This document shows positions 6,966-23,757 of a stretch of 48,977 nucleotides of DNA, piece after piece. Origin of the DNA: a virus; the IMG/VR virus record IMGVR_UViG_3300025828_000035, positions 1-48,977 of that record; one strand, 5' to 3'. The notes below the pieces were generated by a model. The model had not been told where the DNA came from, did not search any database, and saw only the letters and a program-made list of their open reading frames with translations. Made by a program: the position numbers and the translations under genes. How positions within the stretch are numbered: the first letter of the stretch is position 1; each line of letters begins with the position of its first letter.

Positions 6966-6969
6966 TTAT

Positions 6970-6998
6970 TTGGATATTTCAAAGTAATTTCTTATAAT
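6970..6998 (+). promoter_or_regulatory. TTGGAT-class promoter with start next to the ATG of gene 7007
   Basis: TTGGAT (6970-6975), 17 bases, TATAAT (6993-6998), preceded by TTTCT. The predicted start near 7005 is two bases before the ATG at 7007, so the transcript would be leaderless. Confidence 0.65.
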
Positions 6999-7006
6999 AA
7001 AATAAA

Positions 7007-7642: not shown

Positions 7643-7643
7643 A

Positions 7644-8597
7644 ATGCCAGACGTACAATATATTGCACCATTATTCAAATTAGCAAGACGTGATCCATTT
7701 ACGGTACCAACACGCATTTCATATTCACAATGGTCAATGTATGAGAAATGTCCTAAACAATGGGAACTTGCATACATCAAAAAGTTAGCACCATTCACTC
7801 ATAGCATTGAAACAACATTTGGTACTGCATTTCACGAAACAATGCAAGAATACCTTACGGTATTGCTTACAAAAGGTGTGAAGCAAGCAGATTGGATGAA
7901 TTTCCGAAATACGCTTACAGAAAAGCTCAAAGCAGAATATGCGAAAGCTGTTGAACAGACAGGAGAGCATTTTTCCAATAAACATGAATTGGGTGAGTAT
8001 TTAGAAGATGGCGTTGCTATTCTAGAATGGTTTCAGAAGCGTCGAAGACAATACTTTAGCACGAAGAATACAGAGCTGGTTGGTGTCGAATTAGATTTAT
8101 GTGTGCCAGCATCAGAAAAAAATGCAAATGTATTTTGGTACGGATTCATAGATTTAGTAATTAGAAACACTGCAACTAATACCATATCAATCATTGACAT
8201 TAAAACCAGTCGAATGGGCTGGAACAAATGGCAAAAGGCAGACAAATTAAAGGCTGCTCAACTCATAGCATATAAGACATACTTTTCAAAGCAGTATGGC
8301 GTACCAGTAGACAACATTGACATTGAATTTTTTATAGTTAAAAGAAAGCTTCTTGAAGAATCAATGTTTCCGCAAAAGCGAATTCAACAGGTAAGACCGG
8401 CATCTGGAAAACCTTCACGAAACAAAGTACAAAAACAAATTGATCAGTTTGTTGAAGAATGTTTCCAACCCGATGGTAAAAAAGTTGAAGATCGAAAATA
8501 CATGGCTGTTGCTGGCAAAGGGGCAAAGAATTGCAAATATTGCTTCGCAAAAGAACGATATGATTTATGCCCAATGGAAAACCGTATCCGCGAATAA
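7644..8597 (+). CDS. RecB/Cas4-like PD-(D/E)XK exonuclease with Fe-S cluster
   Basis: 317 residues. Nuclease core: GTAFHE at 60-65, GFID with D170, IIDIK with D185 and K187, and the QLIAYK motif with Q206. Four cysteines are placed as in Cas4/AddB-type 4Fe-4S nucleases: C36 in YEKCPKQW, then C297, C300 and C309 at the C-terminus. It would degrade single-stranded or flap DNA in phage recombination or replication. No helicase gene adjoins it, so it probably acts as a separate subunit. Confidence 0.85.
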   Translation: MPDVQYIAPLFKLARRDPFTVPTRISYSQWSMYEKCPKQWELAYIKKLAPFTHSIETTFGTAFHETMQEYLTVLLTKGVKQADWMNFRNTLTEKLKAEYAKAVEQTGEHFSNKHELGEYLEDGVAILEWFQKRRRQYFSTKNTELVGVELDLCVPASEKNANVFWYGFIDLVIRNTATNTISIIDIKTSRMGWNKWQKADKLKAAQLIAYKTYFSKQYGVPVDNIDIEFFIVKRKLLEESMFPQKRIQQVRPASGKPSRNKVQKQIDQFVEECFQPDGKKVEDRKYMAVAGKGAKNCKYCFAKERYDLCPMENRIRE

Positions 8598-8640
8598 CAA
8601 TATTTACAAACTTTACACATATTTATATAAAAAGGTAAAT

Positions 8641-9369: not shown

Positions 9370-9382
9370 TTTTCATTATATT
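9354..9382 (+). promoter_or_regulatory. TAGGAT/TATATT promoter with start next to the ATG of gene 9391
   Basis: TAGGAT (9354-9359), 17 bases including TTTCAT, TATATT (9377-9382). The predicted start near 9389 lies two bases before the ATG at 9391. It overlaps the end of the endonuclease gene. Confidence 0.55.
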
Positions 9383-9390
9383 ATAGTATA

Positions 9391-9606
9391 ATGTATCAGC
9401 ACAAACACGCATATGTATATGAATATTTAATGAAACGTCATAAGCCTGACAGAGGATATGAACGTTGTTTATATACGTTGCTTACTGATATTGAAGGTCC
9501 TAATAACAAACAAAACAGAGAGATGTTAGAACGAGGATTTCGAATTGGTTATGGTTTCAAACCTAAACACATTCGTTATCGTTATGACGACTATCGAAAA
9601 AAATGA
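9391..9606 (+). CDS. Small basic hypothetical protein
   Basis: 71 residues, rich in Tyr, Arg and Lys, with no recognised motif or membrane segment. It is probably leaderless from the promoter at 9354. It overlaps the SLOG gene by four bases, suggesting coupled expression. Function unknown. Confidence 0.7.
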   Translation: MYQHKHAYVYEYLMKRHKPDRGYERCLYTLLTDIEGPNNKQNREMLERGFRIGYGFKPKHIRYRYDDYRKK

Positions 9607-9998
9607 AAATAGCTGTAATTGGTAGCCGAGATTGGCAGAGTAAAAGAAAACTCCAAGATGTGTTGGGTCGTTTAAAACGATTAGACCAGTCGGTTACTGT
9701 ATTAGGACAGGGAGGCGCAGAAGGTGCACCGCATATGGTAAAAAAGTATTCATTAGAATTTGGACTTCCTTATGTAGAATACAATGCATCATATACAGGT
9801 AAAAATATGTATTCTGCTATGCCAGAAGCATATTATGGCAAAAAGTATCATTTTTCACAGCTTCTTCATCGCATGACACTTATTGCAGATGCTTGCGATA
9901 AGATGATTGTACTTTCTGCAGGTAAATTAGACCCACAACTTGATACAGCAGTTAAACGAGCAAGAAAGAAAAACAAATCGGTTGTTATTCTCAAATAA
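9603..9998 (+). CDS. SLOG/DprA-like Rossmann protein (YspA/DUF2493 type)
   Basis: 131 residues. It opens MKIAVIGSRDW, and then has VLGQGGAEGAPHMVKKY, matching the GSRxW and GGAxGAD motifs of the SLOG nucleotide-binding superfamily; the third motif of a small residue plus IADACDKMIVL and a terminal SVVIL strand are also present. SLOG proteins bind nucleotides or nucleotide-derived ligands and often act in sensing or phage-host conflict. The ligand here is unknown. It is the last gene before the glycan operon. Confidence 0.65.
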   Translation: MKIAVIGSRDWQSKRKLQDVLGRLKRLDQSVTVLGQGGAEGAPHMVKKYSLEFGLPYVEYNASYTGKNMYSAMPEAYYGKKYHFSQLLHRMTLIADACDKMIVLSAGKLDPQLDTAVKRARKKNKSVVILK

Positions 9999-10031: not shown

Positions 10032-11483
10032 ATGGCAAAAAAGAAGATTCTGCTTCTGGCAGATGATCTACGGTTACCGTCTGGTATTGGAACTATTAGT
10101 AAAGAGATAGTTTTAAAGACAGTTCACAAATATGATTGGGTTCAAATTGGAGCTGCAATCAAACATCCAGAACAAGGAAAATTAGTTGATGCATCACCAG
10201 AATTTGTAAAAGAAACTGGAGTAGAAGATGCTTCAGTAAAAATTATTCCATGGGATGGTTACGGAGATAGAAATATACTATTTCAAGTAATTGAACATGA
10301 GAAACCAGATGCAATATTCCATTTCACGGATCCGAGATATTGGACATGGCTATATGCTCTAGAGCATGAGCTAAAAACACGATATCATCTTCCAATTATT
10401 TATTATTCAATTTGGGATGATTTGCCATACCCAATGTGGAATGCTCCTTTCTACGGCAGTTCGGATTTGATTATGGGTATTTCAAAACAATCTGACAACA
10501 TTCACAGAGAAGTACTAGGGCAGAATGGGTTCAATGTAGTTGATTTAAATCTAGATGAAGTTCATTTTGAAAAAGACTCATGGAATACTGTATATACTGC
10601 ATATGTTCCTCACGGATTAGATGATACATATTACAAGCCATTGCCTAAAGATGATGATGCATATCAAAAAATGTTCAAGCAACTAAAAACAGATAATGGT
10701 GTTGATTTCTTAGTAATGTGGAACAATAGAAACATTAGAAGAAAACTTCCAGGTGATGTTATTTTATCATTTGAGCATTTCCGAAAATCATTACCAGAAG
10801 ATCAACAAAACCGAGTAGCACTTGTTATGCATACTTCAATAGTAGACGGTAATGGAACTGATTTAAGAGCAGTTTGGAAAGCAGTAGCACCAGATGCTAA
10901 AGTATTATTTTCAGACAAGAAATTGGCTGCAAAAGATCTTAATGCAATGTATAATGTAGCTGATGTTGTCGTAAACATTGCATCAAATGAAGGTTGGGGA
11001 CTTAGTAGCACAGAAGCATTACTTGCAGGTACTGTCATTGTAAATACTGTTACTGGAGGATTGCAAGACCAAATGAGATTTGAGGATGAGAACGGCGATT
11101 GGATTACATTTGATCAGAGTTTCACCACAAACCATACAGGAAAATATAAGAAACATGGGGAATGGGCTAAGCCAGTATTTCCAAGTAATAGATCATTACA
11201 AGGATCGCCGGCTACTCCATATATCTTTGATGATAGAGTTCGTTTTGAAGATGTGGGAAACGCAATACTAGAGTGGTGGGAAACTTCAGACACAAAACGA
11301 CAAGAAGCAGGTATTGCAGGACGAGAATTTTGTTTGACACATGGATTAACAGCCAAGCAGATGGGCGAATCAATGATTCAACATATTGACTTTTTGTTCA
11401 CTCAACCAAAAGACGCTCGGCCTAGATATACATTTAATAAAGTAGAATCCACACAATACGAAAATATAGGTATTACCGAATGA
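10032..11483 (+). CDS. GT-B (GT4-like) glycosyltransferase
   Basis: 483 residues. The N-terminus KKKILLLADDLRLPSGIGTISKEIV is a GT4-type acceptor-domain start with a Gly-rich loop. The C-terminal donor site has NIASNEGWGLSSTEALLAGTVIV with the E-x7-E pattern. It is longer than typical GT4 enzymes, with an insertion near 195-235. It opens the 12.8 kb glycan operon, with AAAGGTTACGA before the start, and its stop overlaps the next GT gene. Donor and acceptor cannot be read from sequence. Confidence 0.85.
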   Translation: MAKKKILLLADDLRLPSGIGTISKEIVLKTVHKYDWVQIGAAIKHPEQGKLVDASPEFVKETGVEDASVKIIPWDGYGDRNILFQVIEHEKPDAIFHFTDPRYWTWLYALEHELKTRYHLPIIYYSIWDDLPYPMWNAPFYGSSDLIMGISKQSDNIHREVLGQNGFNVVDLNLDEVHFEKDSWNTVYTAYVPHGLDDTYYKPLPKDDDAYQKMFKQLKTDNGVDFLVMWNNRNIRRKLPGDVILSFEHFRKSLPEDQQNRVALVMHTSIVDGNGTDLRAVWKAVAPDAKVLFSDKKLAAKDLNAMYNVADVVVNIASNEGWGLSSTEALLAGTVIVNTVTGGLQDQMRFEDENGDWITFDQSFTTNHTGKYKKHGEWAKPVFPSNRSLQGSPATPYIFDDRVRFEDVGNAILEWWETSDTKRQEAGIAGREFCLTHGLTAKQMGESMIQHIDFLFTQPKDARPRYTFNKVESTQYENIGITE

Positions 11484-12730
11484 GAAAAGTAGTTATAGCA
11501 TCACCAGTACAGACACAAAGTGGTTATGGGCATCACGCAAGAGAAGTTATTTCTAATCTAATAGAAAAAAAATCTAAAGAATGGGATATCAAGCTGATTT
11601 CGTTGCCGTGGGGGCATACACCATTTTCATATCCTATTTCAGATGATTGGAAATCAAGATTCATTTCTTCGCAAATGCAAGAACAACCTGATATATGGGT
11701 ACAAATAACAGTTCCTAATGAATTTCAAAAGGTAGGCAAGTTTAACATAGGTGTCACTGCAGCGACAGAAGGCGACATTTGTCCTCCGGATTGGATTGAC
11801 AAAATCAATCAAATGGATGTTACTATTGTGCCAAGTGAATTTACAAAACAAGTAATTCTAAATACAGCACAAGCAACACAGAAATCAGTTGCTAGTAACA
11901 TACAGGTTATTCCAGAATATTTTGATGAAACATGTTATGATAATAGTAAACCGCTGATTGAATTAACAGGAATTGATCAAATAGAAGAATCATTTGCATT
12001 TCTTTCAGTGGGTCATTGGTTGCAAGGCAATTTAGGTCAAGACAGGAAAGACATTTCTGGAATGATACATACATTTTTCAATACATTTAAAAATCAAACT
12101 TCTGCTCCGGCATTGATTTTAAAAACATCAGGTGCAACATATTCAGTTACTGACAGATTTGAGGTTGAAAATAAAATTGCACAGATTAGAGACTTGCATA
12201 AGAAAGATCGTTTACCAAATGTATACTTGTTGCATGGAGATTTAACTGATGATGAAATGAATTCATTGTATAATCACCCAAAGGTAAAGGCAATGGTATC
12301 ATTCACAAAAGGTGAAGGATTTGGACGTCCGCTACTTGAATTTGCAACTACAGGCAAACCTATTATTGCTCCACACTATTCTGGTCCTGCAGACTTCTTG
12401 AACAAAGACTTCATCTGTGCTTTGCCTGGAGGAGTGACTCCAATTGATGCATCCGCACAAAATCAATTTCTATTGAAAGAAGCTAAATGGTTTACTGTTG
12501 ATTATCGTTATGCAGAAAAGATGTTGAAAGAAGTCAAGAAAAATTATAAAAAGTGGCTTGAATTAGCAAAACGTCAAAGATATTATGCAATTAACAATTT
12601 TAGCAAAAAAGCGGTAAGCAAACGATATGACGAATTAATAGAAATTATCGATAAAGGAACAGAGTCAATTCCAATGCAACAAGACTTGAAACTTCCTAAA
12701 TTGAATTTACCAAAATTACAAAAAGTATGA
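11480..12730 (+). CDS. GT-B (GT4-like) glycosyltransferase
   Basis: 416 residues. The N-terminus VVIASPVQTQSGYGHHAREV again has the GT4 Gly-loop. The donor region MVSFTKGEGFGRPLLEFATTGKPIIAP carries the conserved E-G-F-G-x-P-x-L-E motif, with the two Glu residues spaced as expected. It is paired with the preceding GT by a four-base overlap and followed by a 35-codon frame. Substrates unknown. Confidence 0.88.
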   Translation: MRKVVIASPVQTQSGYGHHAREVISNLIEKKSKEWDIKLISLPWGHTPFSYPISDDWKSRFISSQMQEQPDIWVQITVPNEFQKVGKFNIGVTAATEGDICPPDWIDKINQMDVTIVPSEFTKQVILNTAQATQKSVASNIQVIPEYFDETCYDNSKPLIELTGIDQIEESFAFLSVGHWLQGNLGQDRKDISGMIHTFFNTFKNQTSAPALILKTSGATYSVTDRFEVENKIAQIRDLHKKDRLPNVYLLHGDLTDDEMNSLYNHPKVKAMVSFTKGEGFGRPLLEFATTGKPIIAPHYSGPADFLNKDFICALPGGVTPIDASAQNQFLLKEAKWFTVDYRYAEKMLKEVKKNYKKWLELAKRQRYYAINNFSKKAVSKRYDELIEIIDKGTESIPMQQDLKLPKLNLPKLQKV

Positions 12731-12834
12731 GTACACGAGAAATAGCAGAAACTATAGTAGAATTAATTGAATCTACAACTAATACATATGACGCAGTAGA
12801 ACAAGTAGAAAAATATTTAGAACAATTATCATGA
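12727..12834 (+). CDS. 35-residue hypothetical protein within the glycan operon
   Basis: A small acidic helical frame (MSTREIAETIVELIE...) that overlaps the stop of the preceding GT and the start of the next by ATGA junctions on both sides. The double overlap supports it as real. Function unknown. Confidence 0.55.
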   Translation: MSTREIAETIVELIESTTNTYDAVEQVEKYLEQLS

Positions 12835-13475
12835 AAATTTCGTATGCGATACCAGTCTGTAATGAGATTGATGAAATCAAACGATTACTCACATTCTTAA
12901 TCGAAAATAAAAGAGATGAAGATGAAATTGTAATAGTATATGATTCAGTAAACGGCACCAAAGAAGTTAGAGAATATCTTGTTTCAGTAGACCCAGGAAC
13001 ATCGTATCAACCATTACAAGATTATCCTGTTAGATGGTATTCATATGATTTTGATGGTGATTTCGGGAAAATGAAGAATTGGCTTACTGATATGTGTACG
13101 GGAGATTACGTATTTCAGATTGATGCTGATGAGATGGTTGATAATTACTTATTTTCAGCATTACCTCAAGTTTTAGAACATAACCAAGTAGATGTAATAA
13201 TGGTTCCCCGAATCAATACGGTTGAAGGATTGACTCCTCAACACGTGTCAAAATGGGGTTGGCAAGTAAATGAAAAGGGTTATGTAAACTTTCCAGACTA
13301 CCAATGGCGTATTTATCGTAACTCAGAATCAATACGTTGGAAAAATCGAGTACATGAAGTGTTAGATGGGTACAAGACATTGAGTCATTTACCAAGAAAT
13401 CCAGAGTGGTGTTTGAAGCATCACAAAACAATTGCGAGACAAGAAAAACAAAATAATTTTTACGAAACGTTATGA
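12831..13475 (+). CDS. Family 2 (GT-A) glycosyltransferase
   Basis: 214 residues. ISYAIPVCNE starts a GT-A fold and YVFQIDADEMV supplies the DxD metal/nucleotide-sugar motif. A late block around WRIYRNSESIRWKNRVHE resembles SunS/WaaE-type GT2 proteins, which have a WRxhR...H-E segment. It starts at the ATGA overlap with the small frame at 12727. Confidence 0.85.
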   Translation: MKISYAIPVCNEIDEIKRLLTFLIENKRDEDEIVIVYDSVNGTKEVREYLVSVDPGTSYQPLQDYPVRWYSYDFDGDFGKMKNWLTDMCTGDYVFQIDADEMVDNYLFSALPQVLEHNQVDVIMVPRINTVEGLTPQHVSKWGWQVNEKGYVNFPDYQWRIYRNSESIRWKNRVHEVLDGYKTLSHLPRNPEWCLKHHKTIARQEKQNNFYETL

Positions 13476-13485
13476 AAACACTGTT

Positions 13486-14448
13486 ATGGAAAAAGACAAT
13501 TTAATTATATATGTTTCTTCTAGAAATAACTATGATATGCTAGAAGGAGAAGTATTAAAAAACATCGATATTGAAGGGTTTGAGTTTGTTAACGTAGATG
13601 ATAATTCATGTGAAGAGGAATTAGAAAAAGGTAAAGCTATTTGTAAGAAACATGATATAGTTTTCCTAGAAAATAAAGATCGTGGCGTACAAATGGCTAC
13701 ACAAACCTTAATTGATTTTATTAATGAGAATAGATCTAATTGTAAATGGATAGTGTGCTTTCAACATGATATATATCCTATATCTGAAAACTTTTTTAGT
13801 GAACTAGACAGTTATATAAAATCAGATAAATTAGAAGATTTTGGAATAATTGGGTTTAACGTTTTAGATCATGGCGGCTATACATTAAATAGTTATGACT
13901 TATTTCAACAAGGTGAGTCTCCATTGGGAATGATAGGGATGTGCCATTTATCGGTACAAAATCGATCTAAACGATGGCTATGTACAAAACAACAAGCAGA
14001 GTTATTAAAACAAGATGTTTGGAAAACTCCTTTTATAGTAGAATTTCCAATGTGGGCTGCAGTTGGAATTAATGTAAATAATTGGAATGAGTATATCATA
14101 CCAACCAATCAATATCATTTTCATTTGTGGTTACCGGATATAGCAATGCAGTTTAATTATAAAAATAAAGCGTGTTTAATCTTACCAGATTTATATTGTT
14201 TAAACAATCAGTCTTTGAAAGAAAAATACGATATAAATAAAAATTCAGCTCAGGGAGCAATGCGAGGAAATGATTATCATTTTGGAGAATATTCTAACTT
14301 CACCGCATGGAAAGAAAGATGGGGGTGGCATTATGAAAATGTTCATGAAAATTTTAAAGAAATACAAGATCATTACTCGAACACTCTTATTTTAGAATTT
14401 TTTAATCATGATATAAATAACGGACCATTAAGGAGTTTTAACATATGA
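13486..14448 (+). CDS. GT-A-like glycosyltransferase
   Basis: 320 residues from the ATG at 13486 (MEKDNLIIYVSSRN); an upstream in-frame ATG at 13432 would overlap the previous gene by 44 bases and is less likely. The features are a GT2-type start, FVNVDDNS as the first acidic motif, and WIVCFQHDIYPI where the second acidic cluster should be. The canonical DxD is replaced by HDI, so the donor site is unusual. No membrane segment was seen. Confidence 0.7.
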   Translation: MEKDNLIIYVSSRNNYDMLEGEVLKNIDIEGFEFVNVDDNSCEEELEKGKAICKKHDIVFLENKDRGVQMATQTLIDFINENRSNCKWIVCFQHDIYPISENFFSELDSYIKSDKLEDFGIIGFNVLDHGGYTLNSYDLFQQGESPLGMIGMCHLSVQNRSKRWLCTKQQAELLKQDVWKTPFIVEFPMWAAVGINVNNWNEYIIPTNQYHFHLWLPDIAMQFNYKNKACLILPDLYCLNNQSLKEKYDINKNSAQGAMRGNDYHFGEYSNFTAWKERWGWHYENVHENFKEIQDHYSNTLILEFFNHDINNGPLRSFNI

Positions 14449-15398
14449 ATATACTAGTAACAGGAGCAGCTGGATTAGTAGGCAGCCATACAACAGATTT
14501 ATTGCTTGACGCAGGGCATATAGTTGATGGAATTGACGACTTATCATATGGTACATTAGAAAACTTGTCAAATGCTATAAAAAATAAAAATTTTAAATTT
14601 ATACATGACAAAGTAGAAAATATTGAAAACTATAAAACAAAATATGATGTTATATATCATTTTGCATCATTAAAAAAAGCATGGGATGGTAGTGTATTGT
14701 CTGCAGATATATTAGACACAAATTATCATATGACCAAGATCTTGGTTGATCGTTGTTTGCGACACAAAACTAAGTTTATATTCGCATCTACTAGTGATAT
14801 ATACGGCAATTCAAAAACATTTTGTGAAGATGATGACATAACAATGGGTGCTCCTACAAATGTTCGATATTCATATGCATTATCAAAATGGTATAGTGAA
14901 CAACACATACTAAATACCTTTCAACAACAAGGACTAGAATGCACTGTGATACGTATCTTCGGATGTGCTTCAAAACGTTCTTCAAAAACATGGAGTGGAG
15001 GCCATGTACCATTATTTGCAAAATTAGCATCGCAAGGACAAGACATAGTAATACACGGCGATGGAATGCAAACGAGATCAATTTCCCACGCTAATGATAT
15101 TGCTACAGGATTTGTTTCAATATTGAACCATCCAAAAGAAACAAATGGCGAAATTATTAATTTAGGTACTAATGAGCAAACTACCGTAAAATACATTGCA
15201 GAATTTGTTAATTCATATTTCAGAAAAAAATCAAAAATAATATATGTGCCTGCAGAAAAAGTATTTGGTAACTATCAGGAAATATTAGTTAGATTTGCAA
15301 ATATTGATAAAGCTAAAAAAATATTGAATTACACAATTAAAAACAGTACAAATTCAGTAGTTCAAGAAATTTGTTTAGATTTAAAATTTAAAAAATGA
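14445..15398 (+). CDS. NAD-dependent epimerase/dehydratase (extended SDR)
   Basis: 317 residues. NAD-binding TGAAGLVG at 6-13, an ASTSDIYG segment carrying the catalytic Ser/Thr, and the catalytic pair Y144-x3-K148 in YSYALSK define an extended SDR of the GalE/RmlB type. A sugar nucleotide is the likely substrate, being 4-epimerised or dehydrated as the donor for the surrounding transferases. It overlaps both neighbours by four bases. Confidence 0.9.
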   Translation: MNILVTGAAGLVGSHTTDLLLDAGHIVDGIDDLSYGTLENLSNAIKNKNFKFIHDKVENIENYKTKYDVIYHFASLKKAWDGSVLSADILDTNYHMTKILVDRCLRHKTKFIFASTSDIYGNSKTFCEDDDITMGAPTNVRYSYALSKWYSEQHILNTFQQQGLECTVIRIFGCASKRSSKTWSGGHVPLFAKLASQGQDIVIHGDGMQTRSISHANDIATGFVSILNHPKETNGEIINLGTNEQTTVKYIAEFVNSYFRKKSKIIYVPAEKVFGNYQEILVRFANIDKAKKILNYTIKNSTNSVVQEICLDLKFKK

Positions 15399-16339
15399 AA
15401 ATAGCAGTAATAACACCAATTGGTCATTTAAATGGAGTATTAGATCTTCTGCATACAAAAGGAGAGGTAGTTCTTCATGAAACTGCATCAAAAGAGCAAG
15501 TTCGAAATTTATTAATTAATGATAATATCGATACTATACTTTGTAACCCGAATCAACAAACATATAAAATTGATGAAGAGTTATTGCAAGGAACGTCTGT
15601 TAAATTAATTAATACGTGTTCAACTGGTATGAATCATATAGATGTAGAATATTGTAACGATAATGATATCAAAATATTCTCGTTAACAAAAGATTATGAT
15701 TTAATTAAACAGCTTCCATCAACATCTGAATTAGCATTTGGATTAATGATGTCATTGATACGAAATATACCACAAAGCAAACAACATGTTTCTGAATATA
15801 ATTGGGACTATACAAAGTTTGTAGGTCGTGAAGTTAAATCATTAACAATTGGTATCATTGGATATGGTAGGCTTGGAAAAATGATGCATGATTATTGCAA
15901 AGCATTCGGAGCTGATGTAAAAGTATATGATCCGTATATACGAGAAGATATGGATGATGCATTTTTACTCAATACTTATTGCGAATTACCAATTATGTTC
16001 GAACAATGTGATGTTATATCATTACATGTACATGTAACGCCAGAAACGACTTACATGATTAATAAAAAATTACTTGGATATAGTAAAAAATCTCCATATA
16101 TTATTAATACCAGTAGGGGAGAAATAGTTAATGAACAAGATATTATAGAAGCATTGGAAAATAAGGTTATATCGGGATATGGTGCAGATGTAGTTGAAAA
16201 TGAATTTGACAATCTAAAAGCATCTCCTATTATACAAGCAATGAATCGAGGAGAAAACATAATAGTTACACCACATACTGGTGGAATGACGATTGAAGGC
16301 CAAACTAGAGCATATAAATGGGCAGTAAATAAATTATGA
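15395..16339 (+). CDS. D-isomer-specific 2-hydroxyacid dehydrogenase
   Basis: 314 residues. The Rossmann motif GYGRLG lies at 156-161. The catalytic triad is placed as in SerA/PdxB: R241 in NTSRGE, E270 in the VVENE segment and H294 in TPHTGG. It would oxidise a 2-hydroxyacid or reduce a 2-oxoacid with NAD(H). In this operon it may supply or tailor an acidic sugar or a small acyl substituent. The exact substrate is unknown. Confidence 0.9.
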   Translation: MKIAVITPIGHLNGVLDLLHTKGEVVLHETASKEQVRNLLINDNIDTILCNPNQQTYKIDEELLQGTSVKLINTCSTGMNHIDVEYCNDNDIKIFSLTKDYDLIKQLPSTSELAFGLMMSLIRNIPQSKQHVSEYNWDYTKFVGREVKSLTIGIIGYGRLGKMMHDYCKAFGADVKVYDPYIREDMDDAFLLNTYCELPIMFEQCDVISLHVHVTPETTYMINKKLLGYSKKSPYIINTSRGEIVNEQDIIEALENKVISGYGADVVENEFDNLKASPIIQAMNRGENIIVTPHTGGMTIEGQTRAYKWAVNKL

Positions 16340-17001
16340 AACGTCCAAAAAAAATATATTTAGATCAAAATACAATTAATGATTGTATACAATCAATTGA
16401 TAACTTTAAAGTAGAGTTAGATTACATTGAATATGATATTTCATACTTTAAAGAATTCGAACGAATAATTATAGTAGGACTTCAACGTTCCGGCACAACA
16501 TTTACAGCTCAAGCTATTGCAAAAACATTGAATTATAAGTTTATTGATGAAGGCGCATTTGGAGTAAAAAATTCAAAAATATTTAAACAATTGATTCAAC
16601 AATCAAATATCGTTGTTCAAGCTCCTTCAATGACTTATAAAATACAAACGTTGGTATCTGAAAATGATTTAGTAGTTTTTATGAATAGGAAGTGGTCAGA
16701 CATAGTAAAATCAGTTTATCGAAAAAATAACAAATTGAGTAATTGGATTTTCATGAAAACAATGTATGAGGTAGATAAATTTTATTTTACAGACGCAGAT
16801 CCCAATTGTTTGGATACGTTTAACACTCATGTAGATATCAATAGTTATTATCTAGATTCATATTATAAAATTTGGAAACATTATCAATCTAACGTTATTA
16901 AAAATAATATAACATTGGATTATGAATCAATGAAAAATCATCCGTTATGGATTGATAAAACTCAAAGAACTAATTTTTCACCGAAACAAACAGGAATATG
17001 A
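16336..17001 (+). CDS. Sulfotransferase-like P-loop protein
   Basis: 221 residues. VGLQRSGTTF at 47-56 is the 5'-phosphosulfate-binding loop typical of PAPS-dependent sulfotransferases. A following FMNRKWSDIVKSVYR segment fits the 3'-phosphate-binding motif (R-x(8)-S). It would transfer sulfate from PAPS to a sugar hydroxyl. It overlaps both neighbours by four bases. It is slightly shorter than typical carbohydrate sulfotransferases, and a nucleotide kinase role cannot be fully excluded. Confidence 0.75.
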   Translation: MKRPKKIYLDQNTINDCIQSIDNFKVELDYIEYDISYFKEFERIIIVGLQRSGTTFTAQAIAKTLNYKFIDEGAFGVKNSKIFKQLIQQSNIVVQAPSMTYKIQTLVSENDLVVFMNRKWSDIVKSVYRKNNKLSNWIFMKTMYEVDKFYFTDADPNCLDTFNTHVDINSYYLDSYYKIWKHYQSNVIKNNITLDYESMKNHPLWIDKTQRTNFSPKQTGI

Positions 17002-17543
17002 AAATATTAACAATTATACCAGCAAAAACAGATTCAACAAGATTACCTAAAAAAAATATACAAAAAATTAAAGGTAAAACATTAGTTGAATATTCAATTG
17101 ATTATGCAAACTCAAGTAAACATAATGTAGATATAATAGTTTCATCAGAATCTACAGAAGTTAAAAATATTGTAATGTCATACGGAGTTATTTTCCATAA
17201 TAGAAAAAAAGAACTATGCGGAGATACAGAAGTAGTTGATGTATATTTAGATATTGTAACTAATTTAGTCGAAGATTATGATTTAGTAGTATGTTTGCAG
17301 CCAGATAATCCAAATAGATCACACACATTTGATGAATGCATTCAATATATGATTGATAATAATTATGATGATCTAATAACAGTTAATACAGAATATAAAC
17401 GTAGTGGATCTGTACGTATATTTAAATTTGATTATTTGAAATCTGGTCAAGTAAGTAAAAGATTAGGATGTATAAAAGATGATGCAATCGATATACATTA
17501 TCAACAAGATTTAGAACGAGCAACAGAAAGGATACAACAATAA
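16998..17543 (+). CDS. Cytidylyltransferase, CMP-nonulosonate synthetase-like (NeuA family)
   Basis: 181 residues, shorter than NeuA (about 220-230). IPAKTDSTRLPKKNI at 7-21 is the NTP-binding signature of the acylneuraminate and KDO cytidylyltransferases. LVVCLQPDNPNRSHTFDECI matches the next conserved block, in which L-Q-P-x-x-P-x-R-x-x-x-x-I binds the sugar. It would activate a nonulosonic or related acid as a CMP-sugar. The NeuB-like synthase is two genes downstream. Confidence 0.8.
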   Translation: MKILTIIPAKTDSTRLPKKNIQKIKGKTLVEYSIDYANSSKHNVDIIVSSESTEVKNIVMSYGVIFHNRKKELCGDTEVVDVYLDIVTNLVEDYDLVVCLQPDNPNRSHTFDECIQYMIDNNYDDLITVNTEYKRSGSVRIFKFDYLKSGQVSKRLGCIKDDAIDIHYQQDLERATERIQQ

Positions 17544-18130
17544 TGGCATTATTCGGAAAACAAAGATTCCCAGAATCATATCAAAGAGCAGTAGGTATGG
17601 GAGCTAGCGAAGTTTTACATAAAAACTCCCGGGAACTAGTTAATATTTTAAAAAAACATAACGTTTTAAATAGTGAGTCATCAGTTTTTGAATTAGGATC
17701 TGGGCCTGCACGAAATTTATATTATATATACAAAGAATTTGGTATTGATAATTTATTTTGTAGTGATTTGTTTCGAGATGCATCTTTAAATAGTATGTCA
17801 AATGAAATAAAAGATATAGTTACCTTCTTTGAAGGAGACTCACAAGATGTTATTGATAACACTATTATACCTAACTTAGATTTATTTTTGGTTTCTGACC
17901 ATTTAATGCATCTTCAATACGAGAAAGCTGATCATATTATTAAAACTATCATAGAAAAATGGAATCCTCCGTACATTATGATTCGAGAATTGAAAAAAGA
18001 ATTTGAAACGCCAGATCATCCCAGACTGTTTCATAATTATGATCAGTTTTTAACTAGTTATGATATGATTAGTAATACTAGTAGCGAGCAAACAGATGCA
18101 TATTTTATTTGGTTATTAAAAAGGAAATAA
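17543..18130 (+). CDS. SAM-dependent methyltransferase-like protein
   Basis: 195 residues. SVFELGSGPARN near 48-58 is class I methyltransferase motif I, followed by FCSDLFRDA with the acidic residue that binds SAM ribose, and LDLFLVSDHLMHL as the post-II region. It likely methylates a sugar or lipid hydroxyl of the glycan. It starts at a one-base overlap with the cytidylyltransferase gene. Confidence 0.75.
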   Translation: MALFGKQRFPESYQRAVGMGASEVLHKNSRELVNILKKHNVLNSESSVFELGSGPARNLYYIYKEFGIDNLFCSDLFRDASLNSMSNEIKDIVTFFEGDSQDVIDNTIIPNLDLFLVSDHLMHLQYEKADHIIKTIIEKWNPPYIMIRELKKEFETPDHPRLFHNYDQFLTSYDMISNTSSEQTDAYFIWLLKRK

Positions 18131-18928
18131 ATGATAGTTATAGCAGAAATAGGATGGAATCATGGCGGTAATATGCAGTTAGCAAAAGATATGGCAAAAG
18201 CAGCAAAAGATAGCGGTGCCACTTATGCAAAATACCAAACATGGTCAGTAAATAGATTAAAGCCAGGAAGTTGGGATACAGATGGCAGAAGAGAGATTTA
18301 CGAAAAGGCAGAATTATCTAAACAAGATCACATCGAACTTATTGAATATTGTAATCAAATAGGAATTAAATTTTTATCATCGGTTTTTAGTATACCAGAT
18401 GCCAAATTATTAAAAAAATTAGGATGTACTGACGTTAAAATACCAAGCTTTGAGTCTAGAAATTATGAGCTCATTGAATATTGCGGTAAACATTTTAAAA
18501 CAGTGTTTATGTCTACTGGTACTTCTACATTGGATGAAATAAAAGAAAGTAAACGATATTTTGGAACAGCAATTTGGTATTTAATGCATTGTGTTTCTAC
18601 ATATCCATGTGATTATTCAATTGCAAATCTTCCAAAAATGATATCGTTAAAAAAGATGCATGACAGAGTTGGTTACAGTGATCATATACAAGGAATTGAT
18701 TCGGCAAAAATAGCTATCGGATATGGGGCTCAGGTAATAGAAAAACATTTTACCATAGATAATAATCTTCCTGGCAGAGATAATAAATTTGCAATACTAC
18801 CACATGAACTTCTTGGTTTAACACAGTATATTTCATATATTAATAATATGATGATTGATCATGGTACTGGATATAATGAATTAGAAACAGATTCAAGAGA
18901 AAACTATGCAGGTAGATTTAATGGATAA
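18131..18928 (+). CDS. NeuB-like PEP-condensing synthase lacking the SAF domain
   Basis: 265 residues against about 340 for NeuB. AEIGWNHGG at 5-13, AKYQTW, HCVSTYP, GYSDH and IEKHFTID...PGRDNKFA are the barrel motifs of sialic/pseudaminic/legionaminic acid synthases. These enzymes condense phosphoenolpyruvate with an N-acyl hexosamine. The C-terminal antifreeze-like SAF domain that normally covers the sugar site is absent, which suggests an altered substrate or dependence on a partner. It directly follows the methyltransferase stop. Confidence 0.88.
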   Translation: MIVIAEIGWNHGGNMQLAKDMAKAAKDSGATYAKYQTWSVNRLKPGSWDTDGRREIYEKAELSKQDHIELIEYCNQIGIKFLSSVFSIPDAKLLKKLGCTDVKIPSFESRNYELIEYCGKHFKTVFMSTGTSTLDEIKESKRYFGTAIWYLMHCVSTYPCDYSIANLPKMISLKKMHDRVGYSDHIQGIDSAKIAIGYGAQVIEKHFTIDNNLPGRDNKFAILPHELLGLTQYISYINNMMIDHGTGYNELETDSRENYAGRFNG

Positions 18929-19562
18929 CGTTAGTATAATTATACGAAACCGAAATGAATCTGAGTATATTGGATTTGCTATACAATCATGTATAGATCA
19001 TTTCAAAAATCCAGAAATAATCATAGTAGATAATAATTCTACAGATGAGTCATTAGAAATTGTAAATTTATTTATAGACCGAACTGATATAAAAATAGTT
19101 GAAATCACTGATTATACACCAGGTAAGTCAATTAATTTAGGAGTTCAGAATGCTTCGCGCGATATTATATTAGTTTTATCAGCACATTCGCAAATTACTG
19201 AAGTTAATTTAGAAAGAGTACAAGAAATTCTTATTCATCATAAAGCAGTAATGGGCCAACAGAATCCAATATATCGAGGCAAAAAGATTTCAAAACGATA
19301 TATATGGAGTCATTTTATAGACGAACCATGTGTTAACATGTACTCAGATATAGAAAATCGACAATTTTTACATAATGCATTTTGTTTTTATAAACGAGAA
19401 GATTTACTAGAAAATCCAATGCCAGAACAATATCCTGGAAAAGAAGACAGATTCTGGGCTATTGACATAGTAAATCGAGGTTACACCTACTGGTATTCTC
19501 CAGAATTTAAATGTAATCATTTTTATACTAACAATGGCGCAACATGGAAAGGTATAGGATAA
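18921..19562 (+). CDS. Family 2 (GT-A) glycosyltransferase
   Basis: 213 residues from the ATG at 18921 (MDNVSIIIRNRNE), eight bases upstream of the NeuB stop; an ATG five codons earlier is also possible. IIVDNNSTDES is the first GT2 motif. The DxD position reads VLSAHSQI, so it is atypical; GKEDRFWAIDIVNRG resembles the catalytic ED block of GT2 enzymes. Confidence 0.85.
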   Translation: MDNVSIIIRNRNESEYIGFAIQSCIDHFKNPEIIIVDNNSTDESLEIVNLFIDRTDIKIVEITDYTPGKSINLGVQNASRDIILVLSAHSQITEVNLERVQEILIHHKAVMGQQNPIYRGKKISKRYIWSHFIDEPCVNMYSDIENRQFLHNAFCFYKREDLLENPMPEQYPGKEDRFWAIDIVNRGYTYWYSPEFKCNHFYTNNGATWKGIG

Positions 19563-20575
19563 TGAAACAACGTATTTTACTATTGTTTACTAATCATCGT
19601 GTTGCAGAAAAATTATGGCCTATTATACCTGAGTTATCTAAAAACTATGTTATTGATTTGTTTTTAATTGGGTTATTCAGTAACGAGACGCCATGGGTGG
19701 GCGATATAGATGAACGTCAATTAAAACTAAACCAATATAAAGATTACATTGATAACATAATACAAGGTCCGGGGGTTCGGTATCATGGCGATCGGGTAAA
19801 ACAAAGTCTTTGTAATTATGTAGATATAACTAAATATGCATTTGTAATATATGATGACAACAGAAAGAAACCAGAATATGATATTCCAGCATTTTATCAG
19901 TACTGTAAACAAAACAATGTCACAGTAATTGGCAATTCGCATGGAAATGAAAATTCGCCACATAATGAAATTGGAACAGCGTATGACTATCGAATGGATT
20001 TTCATAACGGAGGAATTCCAGCTAATGATACATTAAAACATGTAAAACGTAATAACAAACATATATTAGTTATAACTAACTTTTTGTCAAATCGTAATTC
20101 TATCTTTCCGATTAATTTTGATAAATCATTTATACAACAAACAGGTTTATTAGAATTACAGGAAAAGTTTCAATGTCCTATAAAAGTAAAAATAAAAACG
20201 AGACTTGATAAACCAAATTATGTTGAAGATATTGAATATGTTAAAAGTTTACTTGATTGTGATATTGTTACAAATTGTGAGGATATTGATCAATTGATAG
20301 CAGATTCAAATATAGTAGTCGCTGCACCATCTACACTATGTTTTAAGCCTATACAATTAGGAATACCAACTGTGTTAATTAAAGGTGCAGGTGCAGCAGG
20401 TGCATTTTATTCATATCCTGGATTAGTCGAGATGCAACCAGATATTGTGAAACAGAATATTGAAGAACAAATTAAACATGGTAGATATGATAACTACATA
20501 CAAACAACTATAAAAGGCGGAGAAGAATTTTGTAGTACAAAACATTATATTAAATACATTGAAACATTGATATGA
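19562..20575 (+). CDS. Predicted GT-B glycosyltransferase-like protein
   Basis: 337 residues from the ATG that overlaps the previous stop (TAATG). Two Rossmann-like halves are visible. The second contains DSNIVVAAPSTLCFKPIQLGIPTVLI, a pattern shared by GT-B enzymes and UDP-sugar epimerases of the WecB type, and ends in helical text. GNSHGNENSPHNE in the first half may contact the acceptor. The family is not certain. Confidence 0.6.
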   Translation: MKQRILLLFTNHRVAEKLWPIIPELSKNYVIDLFLIGLFSNETPWVGDIDERQLKLNQYKDYIDNIIQGPGVRYHGDRVKQSLCNYVDITKYAFVIYDDNRKKPEYDIPAFYQYCKQNNVTVIGNSHGNENSPHNEIGTAYDYRMDFHNGGIPANDTLKHVKRNNKHILVITNFLSNRNSIFPINFDKSFIQQTGLLELQEKFQCPIKVKIKTRLDKPNYVEDIEYVKSLLDCDIVTNCEDIDQLIADSNIVVAAPSTLCFKPIQLGIPTVLIKGAGAAGAFYSYPGLVEMQPDIVKQNIEEQIKHGRYDNYIQTTIKGGEEFCSTKHYIKYIETLI

Positions 20576-21279
20576 AGAAAGAAAGATTAGTAGTATATAC
20601 AGCGCTGTTTACAGATGATATTCAACATATATACGGAACATTACCAGAATATGAAGATACTTCTATAGAATTCATATGTTTTACTAATACACCACATTTA
20701 AAATCAGATACATGGGATATTAGATTAGTTGATATCAATGATGATATTTCTCCAAGAAAACAAGCTCGTAAATATAAAATGTTACCACATAACTATTTAC
20801 CGGAATATGATGCATGGATATGGATGGACAACTCATGTTTATTCAGATATGATCCTATAGATTTGTTTGATTTTTATATGAGAGATTCAGATATATGTGT
20901 TCATGAACATTGTGATAGAACTAATATAGAACAAGAAGCACAAGTTATCATACAACGAAATTTAGATGATCCTGACTTAGTAAATAAACAGATACAACGA
21001 TACAAACAAGAAAAATACAAAGATCAAGGATTATATGAGACTGGTATATTAATGAGACGAAACAATAGTGACATTATTGGATTCAATGAATTGTGGTGGC
21101 AAGAAATAAACAATAATTCTATTCGTGATCAAATTTCATTTCCATATGTTTTATGGAAGCATGATCGGATACGTTTAAATGCAATTAAAGAAACATTTGT
21201 AGCTCATCGGTCTCTATTAAACAAAAAACAATCCGAACATTTTTATACAGTACCGAGAAGTAAGGTTAAACTAATATGA
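20572..21279 (+). CDS. TOD1/MUCI70-like (DUF616) glycosyltransferase
   Basis: 235 residues. PRKQARKYKMLPHNYLPEYD and then WIWMDNSCLFRYDP match the DUF616/TOD1 family blocks (yK-lP-yLPeYD; W-D-s). ICVHEHCDRTNIEQEA is the next conserved H...R...Y/E-E block. These are putative GT-A enzymes with the D-N/D pair at the donor site. Substrate unknown. Confidence 0.75.
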   Translation: MKKERLVVYTALFTDDIQHIYGTLPEYEDTSIEFICFTNTPHLKSDTWDIRLVDINDDISPRKQARKYKMLPHNYLPEYDAWIWMDNSCLFRYDPIDLFDFYMRDSDICVHEHCDRTNIEQEAQVIIQRNLDDPDLVNKQIQRYKQEKYKDQGLYETGILMRRNNSDIIGFNELWWQEINNNSIRDQISFPYVLWKHDRIRLNAIKETFVAHRSLLNKKQSEHFYTVPRSKVKLI

Positions 21280-21965
21280 AAATAATATATAGAATATCAG
21301 ACGCAGGTTACAACAAAGTAAAACCAGAATATATCAATAATGAATTATGTTTAAAGAATGCTACTACAGTATTTAAAGATGCTAACTGGAATATTATTGC
21401 TGATAATATTTCTGCAGAAACAAATGATATGATTCAAAAATATAAATCTAGAGATCATATTGATTATGTATCTGTAGGACATGGAGCTGGTACTTTTAAT
21501 TTAGCATTAGATCTTGCTTTAAAATATAATGATGATGAAATTGTTTACTTTATTGAAAATGATTATTTACACAAACCAGATTCTGAAAAAATAATACAAG
21601 AAGGATTTAGTTTAGGAGCATCATTTATAGCTCTATATGATCATCCAGATAAATATTTAGATCCTAGCCATGGAGGCAATCCATTTTGCGGCGGCGGAGC
21701 TGAAGATACTAGAGTTTATTTAACTAATAGTTGTCATTGGAAAATAACAAATAGTACAACAATGACATTTGCTGCAAAAGTATCTACACTAAAACGTGTT
21801 GAGCCTATACTAAGAAAATGGACATCTAGCACACACCCAAATGACTTTCAAATGTTTTTAGATTTAAGACAACAAAATGAATTGCTAATAACATCACTAC
21901 CGGGTTATGCAACTCATGGCGAGACTGCGTGGTTATCACCTTTAACAGATTGGAGTAAAATATGA
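21276..21965 (+). CDS. GT-A-like glycosyltransferase
   Basis: 229 residues. EIVYFIENDYLHKP holds an acidic END in the DxD position and GHGAGTFNLALDLAL may bind the nucleotide. The layout is GT2-like without a clean family fit. It overlaps both neighbours by four bases, consistent with a role in the same glycan. Confidence 0.65.
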   Translation: MKIIYRISDAGYNKVKPEYINNELCLKNATTVFKDANWNIIADNISAETNDMIQKYKSRDHIDYVSVGHGAGTFNLALDLALKYNDDEIVYFIENDYLHKPDSEKIIQEGFSLGASFIALYDHPDKYLDPSHGGNPFCGGGAEDTRVYLTNSCHWKITNSTTMTFAAKVSTLKRVEPILRKWTSSTHPNDFQMFLDLRQQNELLITSLPGYATHGETAWLSPLTDWSKI

Positions 21966-22735
21966 TATCAGTAATAATACCAACATATAAAAGCACAGAA
22001 CATTTAAATTTATGTTTGCAATCTGCATTTTTTGGGGTAGTAAACAGAAGAAATGTACAAATATTAGTTGTTGTCGATGGTACAATGGATATAGTAAAGC
22101 CAGTACTAGATAAATATAGAGACCATGGGGTTGAATATTTAGATCTACAAGAAAACCAAGGATTGTGTCGTGCAACTAATATGGGTGTATACAATGCTCG
22201 TCACGAGAAAATACTTATTGTTAATGACGACAATGTATTTCCAATGCATTGGGATCGAGACTTAGAAGATCTAGTAATGGACCGGGGTTTCGTATTTGCT
22301 CCAAATCAGGTAGAGCCATACCCTAGCATGTTTTCTCAGTTTGTCATACAAGATGACTTAGGAACTACACCAGCTGACTTTGATTTAGAACGTTGGTTTC
22401 GCAGATCCGCACTAATTCAAACGAATCCACAGGGCATTGCAATGAATGGATCAACCCTTCCTATATTTATGCATAAACAAGATTATTTAATGATTGGAGG
22501 ATGGGATGAAAATTATCCTATGGGTATGGTAGCAGATTGGGACTTTTTTTTAAAATGTAAACTAAACGGATTTCAGATGTGGAGAGCATTTGATATTCCA
22601 TTTTACCATTTTGCGTCAGCTTCTGTTAATTCACATGAAAGACAAGTTGCAGAAAGAAACGGACATCAGTATGCGGCGTATAAGTGGGGAACTAATATCA
22701 AGCACAACCCATTAAATAATGAAAAGTATTTATGA
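21962..22735 (+). CDS. Family 2 (GT-A) glycosyltransferase
   Basis: 257 residues. It starts MISVIIPTYKSTEHL, then LVVVDGTMD, NQGLCRATNMGVYNAR, and ILIVNDDNVFP with the DD(N) metal site. GGWDENYPMGMVADWDFFLKC is the catalytic E-D-x-D block near the end. It is a textbook GT2 and the last enzyme of the glycan operon. Confidence 0.9.
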   Translation: MISVIIPTYKSTEHLNLCLQSAFFGVVNRRNVQILVVVDGTMDIVKPVLDKYRDHGVEYLDLQENQGLCRATNMGVYNARHEKILIVNDDNVFPMHWDRDLEDLVMDRGFVFAPNQVEPYPSMFSQFVIQDDLGTTPADFDLERWFRRSALIQTNPQGIAMNGSTLPIFMHKQDYLMIGGWDENYPMGMVADWDFFLKCKLNGFQMWRAFDIPFYHFASASVNSHERQVAERNGHQYAAYKWGTNIKHNPLNNEKYL

Positions 22736-22863
22736 AAAAATTAACACAACAAGACTTAGAAAACTTATTAAATGATGAAGCCGATTCGGATGCGGTAAAT
22801 CGTAAAGAACAAAAGAGCAAAAAGAAAAAACGTAACCATATTTATAATAAAGAATCAGAATAA
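22732..22863 (+). CDS. 43-residue charged hypothetical protein
   Basis: The frame starts at an ATGA overlap with the last GT2 gene. The product has an acidic N-terminal half and a Lys-rich C-terminal half (KSKKKKR). It has no recognised motif. It closes the glycan operon. Confidence 0.5.
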   Translation: MKKLTQQDLENLLNDEADSDAVNRKEQKSKKKKRNHIYNKESE

Positions 22864-22911: not shown

Positions 22912-23145
22912 ATGGCGTTTAAAGATATTTTCAAAGATAACAACGTGTTTAACGAAAAAAACATTGTAGGCTTTGCATCATTTGCAATCATGGCCGTATT
23001 TGCAGCTGCAGATGTAATTACCGGCTTTATGGGTAAAGAACTTGTTATCAGTGATACCATTTTCAATTCATTTGTAATCATTACATTGGGTTCGTTTGGA
23101 ATCGACGGTGTTACAAAAATATTTCAAAAAAAGGATGAGGAATAA
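22912..23145 (+). CDS. Small membrane protein, holin candidate
   Basis: 77 residues with two hydrophobic segments, about 17-38 and 45-64, and a charged C-terminus (QKKDEE). It has a good AGGGAG site before the ATG, stronger than most starts here. It is directly followed by the cell-wall enzyme gene at 23149, a holin-endolysin arrangement. The family is not recognised. Confidence 0.65.
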   Translation: MAFKDIFKDNNVFNEKNIVGFASFAIMAVFAAADVITGFMGKELVISDTIFNSFVIITLGSFGIDGVTKIFQKKDEE

Positions 23146-23148
23146 TAA

Positions 23149-23757
23149 ATGGCGTGTTTTACAAGAGAACAAATACAACAAGCAGTAGAAGGTAAAGGTT
23201 ATCGTTGGTTTGAAGGCGGTGACTACAATTTGAATATTGTAGGAGTTAGAAATTCAGAAACTGGCGGGAAAGTTACTAATAAATTTGATGACTGCGTAAC
23301 TGTATCATATAGTGTGAATGGCGAAAACAAATTTCACTGTTTTGAAGCAACAACTGACCCTGGTTTACATTGGGAAAGAAACCTATTAAACAAAGATGGT
23401 GTTGCAATCTTAGTACCTGGTCAATATAGAGGTTCTCATACAATTGGGTTACATCAAGGTAAGTATGAAGCTCTTAGACAACATAAACCATTAAAAGTTT
23501 ATAGAGATAAAAACAAAGATGGTGTATATGACTTCTTAGAAGAAAATATTCACGAAGGTATATACGGAATCAATATTCATAGAGCTACTTCCAGAGAAGG
23601 TGGAAAATCTGTACAAATAGATAAATGGTCTGCGGGATGTCAAGTAATTGCAGCAAATGCAGATTTCAAATTGTTTATGGAGTTAGTAAATAAGGCTGCA
23701 AAACTATACGGAAACTCATTTACTTATACATTGATTGAAAGTAAAGATATTTCATAA
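23149..23757 (+). CDS. L,D-transpeptidase-like cell-wall enzyme, likely endolysin
   Basis: 202 residues. GINIHRA (H144) followed by KWSAGCQV (C164) reproduces the H...S-x-G-C pattern of the YkuD-type catalytic site. Earlier blocks TTDPG, ILVPGQY and GLHQGKYEAL resemble a family common in phages. DKNKDGVYDFLE at 120-131 fits an EF-hand-like calcium loop (D-x-N-x-D-G...E). It has no signal peptide, so it would need a holin; candidates flank it at 22912 and 23863. Whether it cuts or exchanges peptide cross-links is not decidable here. Confidence 0.65.
   Translation: MACFTREQIQQAVEGKGYRWFEGGDYNLNIVGVRNSETGGKVTNKFDDCVTVSYSVNGENKFHCFEATTDPGLHWERNLLNKDGVAILVPGQYRGSHTIGLHQGKYEALRQHKPLKVYRDKNKDGVYDFLEENIHEGIYGINIHRATSREGGKSVQIDKWSAGCQVIAANADFKLFMELVNKAAKLYGNSFTYTLIESKDIS

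Follow-up and report, generated by a model that had tools for sequence, protein, structure and literature searches.

We analysed a 48,977-base virus record from IMG/VR (IMGVR_UViG_3300025828_000035, referred to below as the window), a fragment of a marine T4-like phage, and focused on the carbohydrate genes at 10032-22863. We consider it probable that these genes form a type-switchable glycan locus, here of the acidic type, whose product would be made in the cytosol and would most likely be attached to a virion protein. A first-pass annotation, made from the letters alone, had described the region as an operon for a sulfated, methylated, nonulosonate-like glycan. Beyond that description, we found that the block begins with a conserved three-glycosyltransferase stem (10032-13475) and continues with a 9.2-kb island (about 13,478-22,711) that is replaced wholesale between phages, and that the slot occupied here by a NeuB-like synthase is interchangeable with an enzyme resembling 3-deoxy-D-arabino-heptulosonate 7-phosphate (DAHP) synthase (DAHPS). 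Gene families were assigned using Pfam, NCBIfam, and PHROGs profiles. The annotated gene set is present: the open reading frames (ORFs) from 10032 to 22735 are intact, all on the plus strand, and in close succession, most overlapping by a few bases, while a 43-aa ORF ending at 22863 matched no family. Dozens of independent contigs repeat both the gene order and the sequences, so the block is not a chance arrangement.

A constant stem and a replaceable island

A search with the exonuclease upstream of the block recovered 80 relatives, and the surrounding gene order was read in those with enough downstream sequence. These share a frame of exonuclease, SLOG-family protein, GT4a, and GT4b, followed by variable genes, and in nearly all relatives that reach further, GT2a comes after GT4b before the variable genes begin. 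Upstream, five relatives match the window at 91-99% identity, but their DNA homology ends at 13473-13478, just past the GT2a stop codon (13475); the stem genes GT4a, GT4b, and GT2a are less similar (80-88%) in some of the five. Homology with relatives resumes at 22711-22731, at the end of GT2c. Between these two edges, glycan genes can be unrelated even in phages whose flanks are 94-97% identical over most of their length. For example, contig 3300025674_006908 spans both edges with an island of 11.7 kb, compared to 9.2 kb in the window; the two islands have no DNA similarity and share only weak protein similarity in GT2c, and this contig instead encodes other transferases, a PIG-L deacetylase, and a methyltransferase. 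The island of L210 is of a GDP-fucose type, with Gmd, a WcaG-like epimerase, a DegT aminotransferase, and GT10/GT11 fucosyltransferase domains. At least three gene sets replace one another between fixed edges. The window island is itself a mosaic, in which the short-chain dehydrogenase/reductase (SDR), the 2-hydroxyacid dehydrogenase, and X343 are 83-87% identical to their counterparts in L039, whose flanks are only 55-66% identical, while NeuB is 82% identical to that of L002 and NeuA 78% identical to that of L032.

The sugar-acid module and its synthase slot

The first-pass annotation had named a NeuB-like synthase without its SAF domain and a short NeuA-like cytidylyltransferase, and both identifications hold. 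The NeuB barrel (PF03102) scored 192.7 bits against a cut-off of 22.1. In an alignment to 1XUU, residues E6, K34, K103, H185, H206, and D217 correspond to E25, K53, K129, H215, H236, and D247 of meningococcal NeuB, which we take to have catalytic roles, and all six positions are invariant in 12 aligned sequences. We found no C-terminal SAF domain (PF08666) in this protein, as the ORF stops after the barrel at 265 aa; direct orthologues likewise end without one, and a similarly short protein is found in the nearest solved structure, 6NCS (290 aa). The protein falls below the NCBIfam equivalog cut-offs for NeuB_NnaB (200 vs 400 bits) and PseI (157 vs 340). The NeuA-like protein has a CTP_transf_3 domain (PF02348, 79.3 bits against a cut-off of 22.6) with the N-terminal nucleotide motif. 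At 181 aa, compared to about 220-250, it keeps the nucleotide-binding half and lacks about 45 residues. Near its C-terminus, D-I-H replaces the usual metal-binding D-x-D, and N-I-H occurs in many loci of the DAHPS type. Another member of the module, GT2b, has a GT2 domain (PF00535) scoring 66.3 bits against a cut-off of 23.3, and every aligned copy has SxH instead of DxD, the DxD column being set by alignment to chondroitin synthase.

To describe the distribution of this module, we searched with NeuB and NeuA, which yielded 17 and 51 viral loci, respectively, as well as 13 loci in cell genomes; after removal of near-duplicates, 45 viral rows (window included) and eight cell rows remained, a non-redundant set of 53. 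The short NeuA adjoins or is fused with a sugar-acid synthase in the 45 non-redundant viral contigs. The first-pass view that such a set is unusual on a phage is not supported, given this count and the glycan clusters already published for marine T4-like phages (PMC3037559, PMC5332604, PMC7029224). The most constant part of the block, and the core of the window island, is the order 2-hydroxyacid dehydrogenase, NeuA, synthase, GT2b. The same four genes, together with GTx338 and the SDR, occur in L019, a marine Bacteroidetes single-cell genome, alongside multi-span membrane proteins in what looks like a polysaccharide locus, and L020, a Synechococcus single-cell genome, carries the DAHPS-type version. 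Omnitrophota, a Pelagibacteraceae single cell, and phages have proteins that join NeuA with NeuB plus SAF, and in L066 and L100 NeuA is joined with an SxH-type GT2. These fusions tie synthesis, activation, and transfer together.

Several neighbours of the module deserve mention. In L077, a 792-aa protein (7561-9939) beside a short NeuA joins an FAD/NAD-binding domain, which by eye resembles UDP-galactopyranose mutase, to NeuB and a SAF-like end. A B12-binding radical S-adenosylmethionine (SAM) protein directly follows the NeuA-NeuB-SAF fusion in L025 (5202-6644, the Pelagibacteraceae single cell) and in L078 (11566-12978, a phage); radical SAM cassettes have also been noted in pelagimyophages (PMC7029224). 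In the alphaproteobacterial genomes L027-L030, a distant NeuA is followed by a 2-hydroxyacid dehydrogenase, a pairing that supports a common pathway step of unexplained role.

The NeuB slot holds a DAHPS-like enzyme in 14 viral contigs of the non-redundant set. In L020 and many phages, the slot protein is 268-294 aa long and belongs to the DAHP synthetase I family (DAHP_synth_1, PF00793, about 1e-50), and the slot proteins score under the NCBIfam cut-offs (238 vs 268 bits). In DAHP synthases, the arginine of the KPRT motif binds the phosphate of erythrose-4-phosphate. As KPCT[Y/F]P replaces this motif in all 11 aligned slot proteins, the enzyme likely uses a different acceptor. All 15 contigs with KPCT-type viral loci (L087-L101) carry a short NeuA within two genes; no such neighbour occurs at the more divergent DAHPS-like loci (L102-L128). 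Mapped onto the NeuA tree, the DAHPS label must change five times, each change being required by branches with good support, and placing all DAHPS-type sequences in one clade was rejected by the approximately unbiased (AU) test (p 1e-36). Synthase switching, as reconstructed on this tree, happened several times. In the phages L054 and L061 (173 kb each), the flanking DNA is 94% and 97% identical on the two sides; one carries NeuB and the other the DAHPS-like enzyme, and their NeuA and GT2b proteins are 80% and 67% identical. L061 also encodes a second, KdsA-like synthase with a KANR motif (6223-7035).

The set-for-set replacement in near-identical phages, the conserved stem, and the apparently equivalent synthase swap together argue that the glycan product is used by the phages and is under diversifying selection. 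More tentatively, and with less confidence than we place in the type-switchable locus itself, we raise the possibility that two phosphoenolpyruvate (PEP)-dependent synthases, the SAF-less NeuB and a DAHPS-derived enzyme with a new acceptor, would feed one minimal CMP transferase family and a new metal-independent SxH family of the GT-A type within capsule-like type-switching phage loci; the second route may then lead to an undescribed CMP-sugar acid.

Proposed pathway, target, and neighbouring genes

From the gene families, catalytic residues, synthase exchange, fusions, island replacement, and lack of multi-span membrane proteins read in these sequences, we infer a pathway, including its substrates, the order of its steps, the GT2b donor, and the virion as target. 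The constant enzymes GT4a, GT4b, and GT2a would probably start the glycan, and the island, exchanged whole between phages, would set its type. The SAF-less NeuB would condense PEP with an aldose, probably a mannosamine-type hexose, to a 3-deoxy-2-ulosonic acid, which the short NeuA would activate with CTP. GT2b would transfer the acid from the CMP donor, having SxH where GT2 enzymes bind metal-diphosphate donors via DxD. Other glycosyltransferases may extend the chain, and the sulfotransferase and methyltransferase may decorate it, with assembly taking place in the cytosol without a phage exporter. The catalytic residues are kept, the module is linked or fused across many genomes, and bacterial polysaccharide loci contain it as well; on these grounds, there is good in silico support for an operon that makes an activated sugar acid and adds it to an oligosaccharide. 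The first-pass term "nonulosonate" is uncertain.

Several points weigh against this pathway. The SAF domain contributes to the partner's sugar site in NeuB, and its absence could alter activity; NeuA lacks the second metal-binding aspartate and the dimerisation insert, so its activity could be altered as well. The pathway assigns no role to the 2-hydroxyacid dehydrogenase. GT2b usually lies directly after the synthase, but not always, and it was not found in L091. The substrates and enzyme activities are predicted, and the virion is a target that we infer where earlier authors favour a change of the host surface. Metagenomic contigs could also be misassembled, but several independent contigs agree on each edge.

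The question of the target turns largely on export. We found no flippase, polymerase, ABC exporter, or other multi-span protein in the window cassette, and none of 879 ORFs in 42 phage loci had four or more predicted spans, compared to 14 of 183 ORFs in the cell loci, where spans were predicted by a simple hydropathy count and the cell stretches extend beyond the loci themselves. Both synthesis and use of the glycan thus probably take place in the cytosol; on this reading, virion proteins are the likeliest target, followed by DNA, ahead of an exported polymer. An alternative that differs only in the acceptor is that the operon alters host lipopolysaccharide (LPS) or capsule and blocks competing phages by superinfection exclusion ("lock-out"), the islands being serotypes. 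This has been proposed for phage LPS genes in PMC5332604 and PMC7029224, it fits with type switching among close relatives as serotype competition, and the occurrence of the module in bacterial polysaccharide loci with multi-span membrane proteins implies that the sugar is at home on cell surfaces. However, with no multi-span protein in the phage loci, host export would have to be borrowed, and lytic infection leaves little time for remodelling, so we regard this alternative as somewhat unlikely but still a strong rival.

The glycans could instead be built on modified bases of the phage genome and shield it from restriction, as happens in T4 and in phages whose glycan-hypermodified DNA was described recently. 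This would also fit with cytosolic assembly, and T4-like phages are known to glycosylate DNA. The window encodes a protein at 2872-4137 with the tRNA-guanine transglycosylase (TGT) motif DSGGYQ, a zinc-type CGLDCPAC, and weak TGT matches, which resembles the phage DpdA proteins that place 7-deazaguanine into DNA and is preceded by a glycosyltransferase (1869-2882), so that base exchange is possible. Copies 71-81% identical to this gene occur in three of 12 large relatives, but it was not found in the NeuA-module records L054 and L061, which may be incomplete. Furthermore, five of eight large relatives encode PF00303 homologues that have the asparagine of thymidylate synthase (FNIASY) and in this differ from dCMP hydroxymethylase, a result that leaves room for makers of 5-hydroxymethyluracil, and a chain built by many transferases with a sulfotransferase is large for DNA. 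We therefore consider DNA an improbable target. A passenger or stuffer origin, in which host-derived genes serve no selected purpose in the phage, has been raised for cyanophage LPS genes (PMC3037559) but is very hard to credit here: the island GC content is below that of its surroundings, but the ORFs are intact, catalytic residues are kept over deep divergence, order and stem are fixed, and the genes are replaced by other glycan sets rather than lost. Decaying passenger genes were rejected since the genes are intact and conserved, and prophage or host contamination was rejected since the flanks consist of phage replication and lysis genes.

Among the other enzymes named in the first-pass annotation, the SDR epimerase and 2-hydroxyacid dehydrogenase were recovered with strong family matches (Table 1). 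The sulfotransferase and methyltransferase stood only in part. The former keeps GLQRSGTTF and RKWSDIVKSVYR, both conserved in two relatives, and the 5'-phosphosulfate-binding (5'-PSB) and 3'-phosphate-binding (3'-PB) motifs (GxQRSGTTFT and RxWSDIxxSVxR) occur in three such sequences, but its Pfam scores lie under the cut-offs (17.9 vs 27 and 16.8 vs 22 bits; E 0.004) and its AlphaFold model was poor (pLDDT 57) and was not used. The methyltransferase has the motif ELGSGPARN but no Pfam match, only PHROGs (E 0.002) and PDB-profile (E 0.006) hits. Sulfation and methylation of the glycan are thus putative, being read from motifs. The set was also called complete, which we could not uphold: no NeuC-type epimerase was established and no gene for making 3'-phosphoadenosine-5'-phosphosulfate (PAPS) was found among the island genes. 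The protein at 19544 shares the NeuC fold (Z 19.9), yet GT-B transferases reach Z 17-18, and in these model comparisons the two classes match about equally well. As for the at least eight glycosyltransferase-type proteins originally counted, six have family support, namely three GT2, one GT-group-1 (PF13692), and TOD1/MUCI70 (PF04765) above the Pfam cut-offs, plus GT4a, which is 0.4 bits below its cut-off and clear in PHROGs; the 19544 protein has a GT-B fold, and those at 13432 and 21276 are GT-A-like by motif only. Judging from relatives, the first of these, GTx338, likely starts at the ATG at 13486 rather than the TTG at 13432. X343 had no match in a PDB profile search.

Table 1. Coordinates of the glycan locus and its flanking landmarks in the window
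Feature	Position	Strand	Basis
Recombination-exonuclease-like protein	7644..8597	+	PHROG 69; 5' landmark of constant frame; PD-(D/E)XK exonuclease at same place in immuto, Mel-JY01
SLOG-family protein (YAcAr), constant frame	9603..9998	+	Pfam E 4e-6, just under cut-off; kept beside GT4a in relatives
GT4a, GT-B glycosyltransferase, constant stem	10032..11483	+	PHROG 2170 1e-14; constant in relatives
GT4b, GT-B glycosyltransferase, constant stem	11480..12730	+	PF13692 above cut-off; cultured relatives 42-45%
GT2a, family-2 glycosyltransferase, last stem gene	12831..13475	+	PF00535 3e-11; homology to five near relatives stops at 13473-13478
Replaceable glycan island	13478..22711		Edges 13473-13478 and 22711-22731; 30.0% GC vs 34.9% and 34.5% beside
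GTx338, GT-A-like protein	13486..14448	+	No Pfam family; 17 homologues
SDR nucleotide-sugar epimerase/dehydratase	14445..15398	+	PF01370 6e-39; 86% to L039
D-2-hydroxyacid dehydrogenase, linked to NeuA	15395..16339	+	2-Hacid_dh PF02826 8e-47; adjoins NeuA in nearly all relatives
Sulfotransferase-like protein with PAPS motifs, rare accessory	16336..17001	+	PF00685/PF13469 below cut-off; motifs conserved in L074, L075
Short NeuA-like CMP-sugar-acid synthetase, [D/N]IH instead of DID	16998..17543	+	PF02348 5e-22; alignments; fusions
Probable class I SAM methyltransferase, accessory	17543..18130	+	Motif-I-like ELGSGPARN; PHROG E 0.002; alignment
SAF-less NeuB-like PEP-dependent sugar-acid synthase, swappable slot	18131..18928	+	PF03102 9e-57; catalytic residues
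GT2b, GT2 with SAH at DxD position, candidate CMP-sugar-acid transferase	18906..19562	+	PF00535 4e-18; SxH invariant
GT-B-fold protein (glycosyltransferase or NeuC-like epimerase)	19544..20575	+	AF2 (AlphaFold 2) pLDDT 90; Foldseek, VIA-align
TOD1/MUCI70-type glycosyltransferase	20572..21279	+	PF04765 2e-14
X229, GT-A-like protein	21276..21965	+	Conserved 73-79% (alignment); also in cultured Mel-JY01
GT2c, family-2 glycosyltransferase, last island gene	21962..22735	+	PF00535 1e-14; near relatives match again from 22711-22731
Putative holin-like small membrane protein	22912-23145	+	Part of 3' landmark 22912..23757
Endolysin-like protein	23149-23757	+	PHROG 33083 endolysin; part of 3' landmark 22912..23757

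Elsewhere, the window encodes T4-like replication genes (a DNA polymerase fragment, a clamp loader, and the exonuclease), together with a sigma factor, GroEL, and the endolysin. The position of the SLOG-family gene between the exonuclease and GT4a is conserved in relatives, and a HATPase_c domain protein (24501-25421) lies downstream of the lysis genes. An insertion of about 770 bases (8542-9354), absent from near relatives, interrupts the end of the exonuclease gene; its ORF (8641-9369) has paired cysteines and matched no family, both reading frames end in ...RIRE, and it is perhaps a homing endonuclease. The sequence TATTTATA occurs on the plus strand at 8620, 10001, 22839, 23776, and 35691, 13-80 bases before ORF starts, and is possibly a promoter element of this phage. 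For TATAAATA, 10 of 12 matches are on the minus strand. The total count is just slightly above chance. A scan for sigma-70-type promoters and terminators in the window gave nothing clear, at or below chance.

Comparison with known systems

Glycan clusters on T4-like marine phages are already known (PMC3037559, PMC5332604, PMC7029224), and whether their LPS-type genes act has been an open question since 2010 (PMC3037559). The T4-like cyanophages P-SSM2, S-SSM7, and S-SM2 carry LPS gene clusters (PMC3037559), which resemble the window locus as large LPS/glycan gene sets on marine T4-like phages, some of them co-occurring in distant isolates. Those clusters lie near hli03 and/or phoH and their function was left open (PMC3037559), whereas the window island lies between the recombination exonuclease and the lysis genes and combines a sugar-acid module with a constant stem and fixed edges. 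The host recognition cluster of pelagimyophages (PMC7029224) is likewise a hypervariable island of marine T4-like phages that is rich in glycosyltransferases, but it is situated between VrlC and gp14 with tail fibres, and its change was judged gradual, in contrast to the whole replacement observed here. A 179-kb T4-like ocean virus, TARA_ERS478052_N000008, carries NeuA and a synthase annotated as KdsA, with Gmd, WcaG, ManC, and WaaG, according to its published gene list (PMC5332604); no slot exchange is described in the parts of that source drawn on here. Compared to bacterial neuBCA operons, the window shares the NeuB barrel and CMP transferase, with SAF-less 6NCS as the closest structure, but has no established NeuC, a short NeuA with [D/N]IH, and an SxH GT2 as partner.

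Given partial literature coverage, we provisionally regard as new the replacement between fixed edges in near-identical phages, the two-synthase slot, the minimal NeuA with an SxH GT2, and the link to cultured phages. If our reading is correct, phages would have their own "serotypes", much as bacteria switch capsule types, and the SxH GT2 family and KPCT DAHPS-like enzymes offer small soluble candidates for new sugar-acid enzymology. In a collection of phage records, mostly isolates, we found no close relative at the DNA level and none for NeuA, and three distant ones for NeuB. Clues to the host are mixed: the module is carried by Bacteroidetes and Synechococcus single-cell genomes, and the frame by Flavobacterium and Microcystis phages. 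Cultured phages with this frame therefore exist: Flavobacterium phage immuto (NC_055915) and Microcystis phage Mel-JY01 (PP395634) have the same order of exonuclease, GT4a, GT4b, and GT2a, followed by sugar genes. Their islands differ, with aminotransferases, methyltransferases, and other glycosyltransferases, and no NeuA or NeuB homologue was found in the stretches examined, but that of Mel-JY01 ends with X229 and GT2c homologues, as does the window island.

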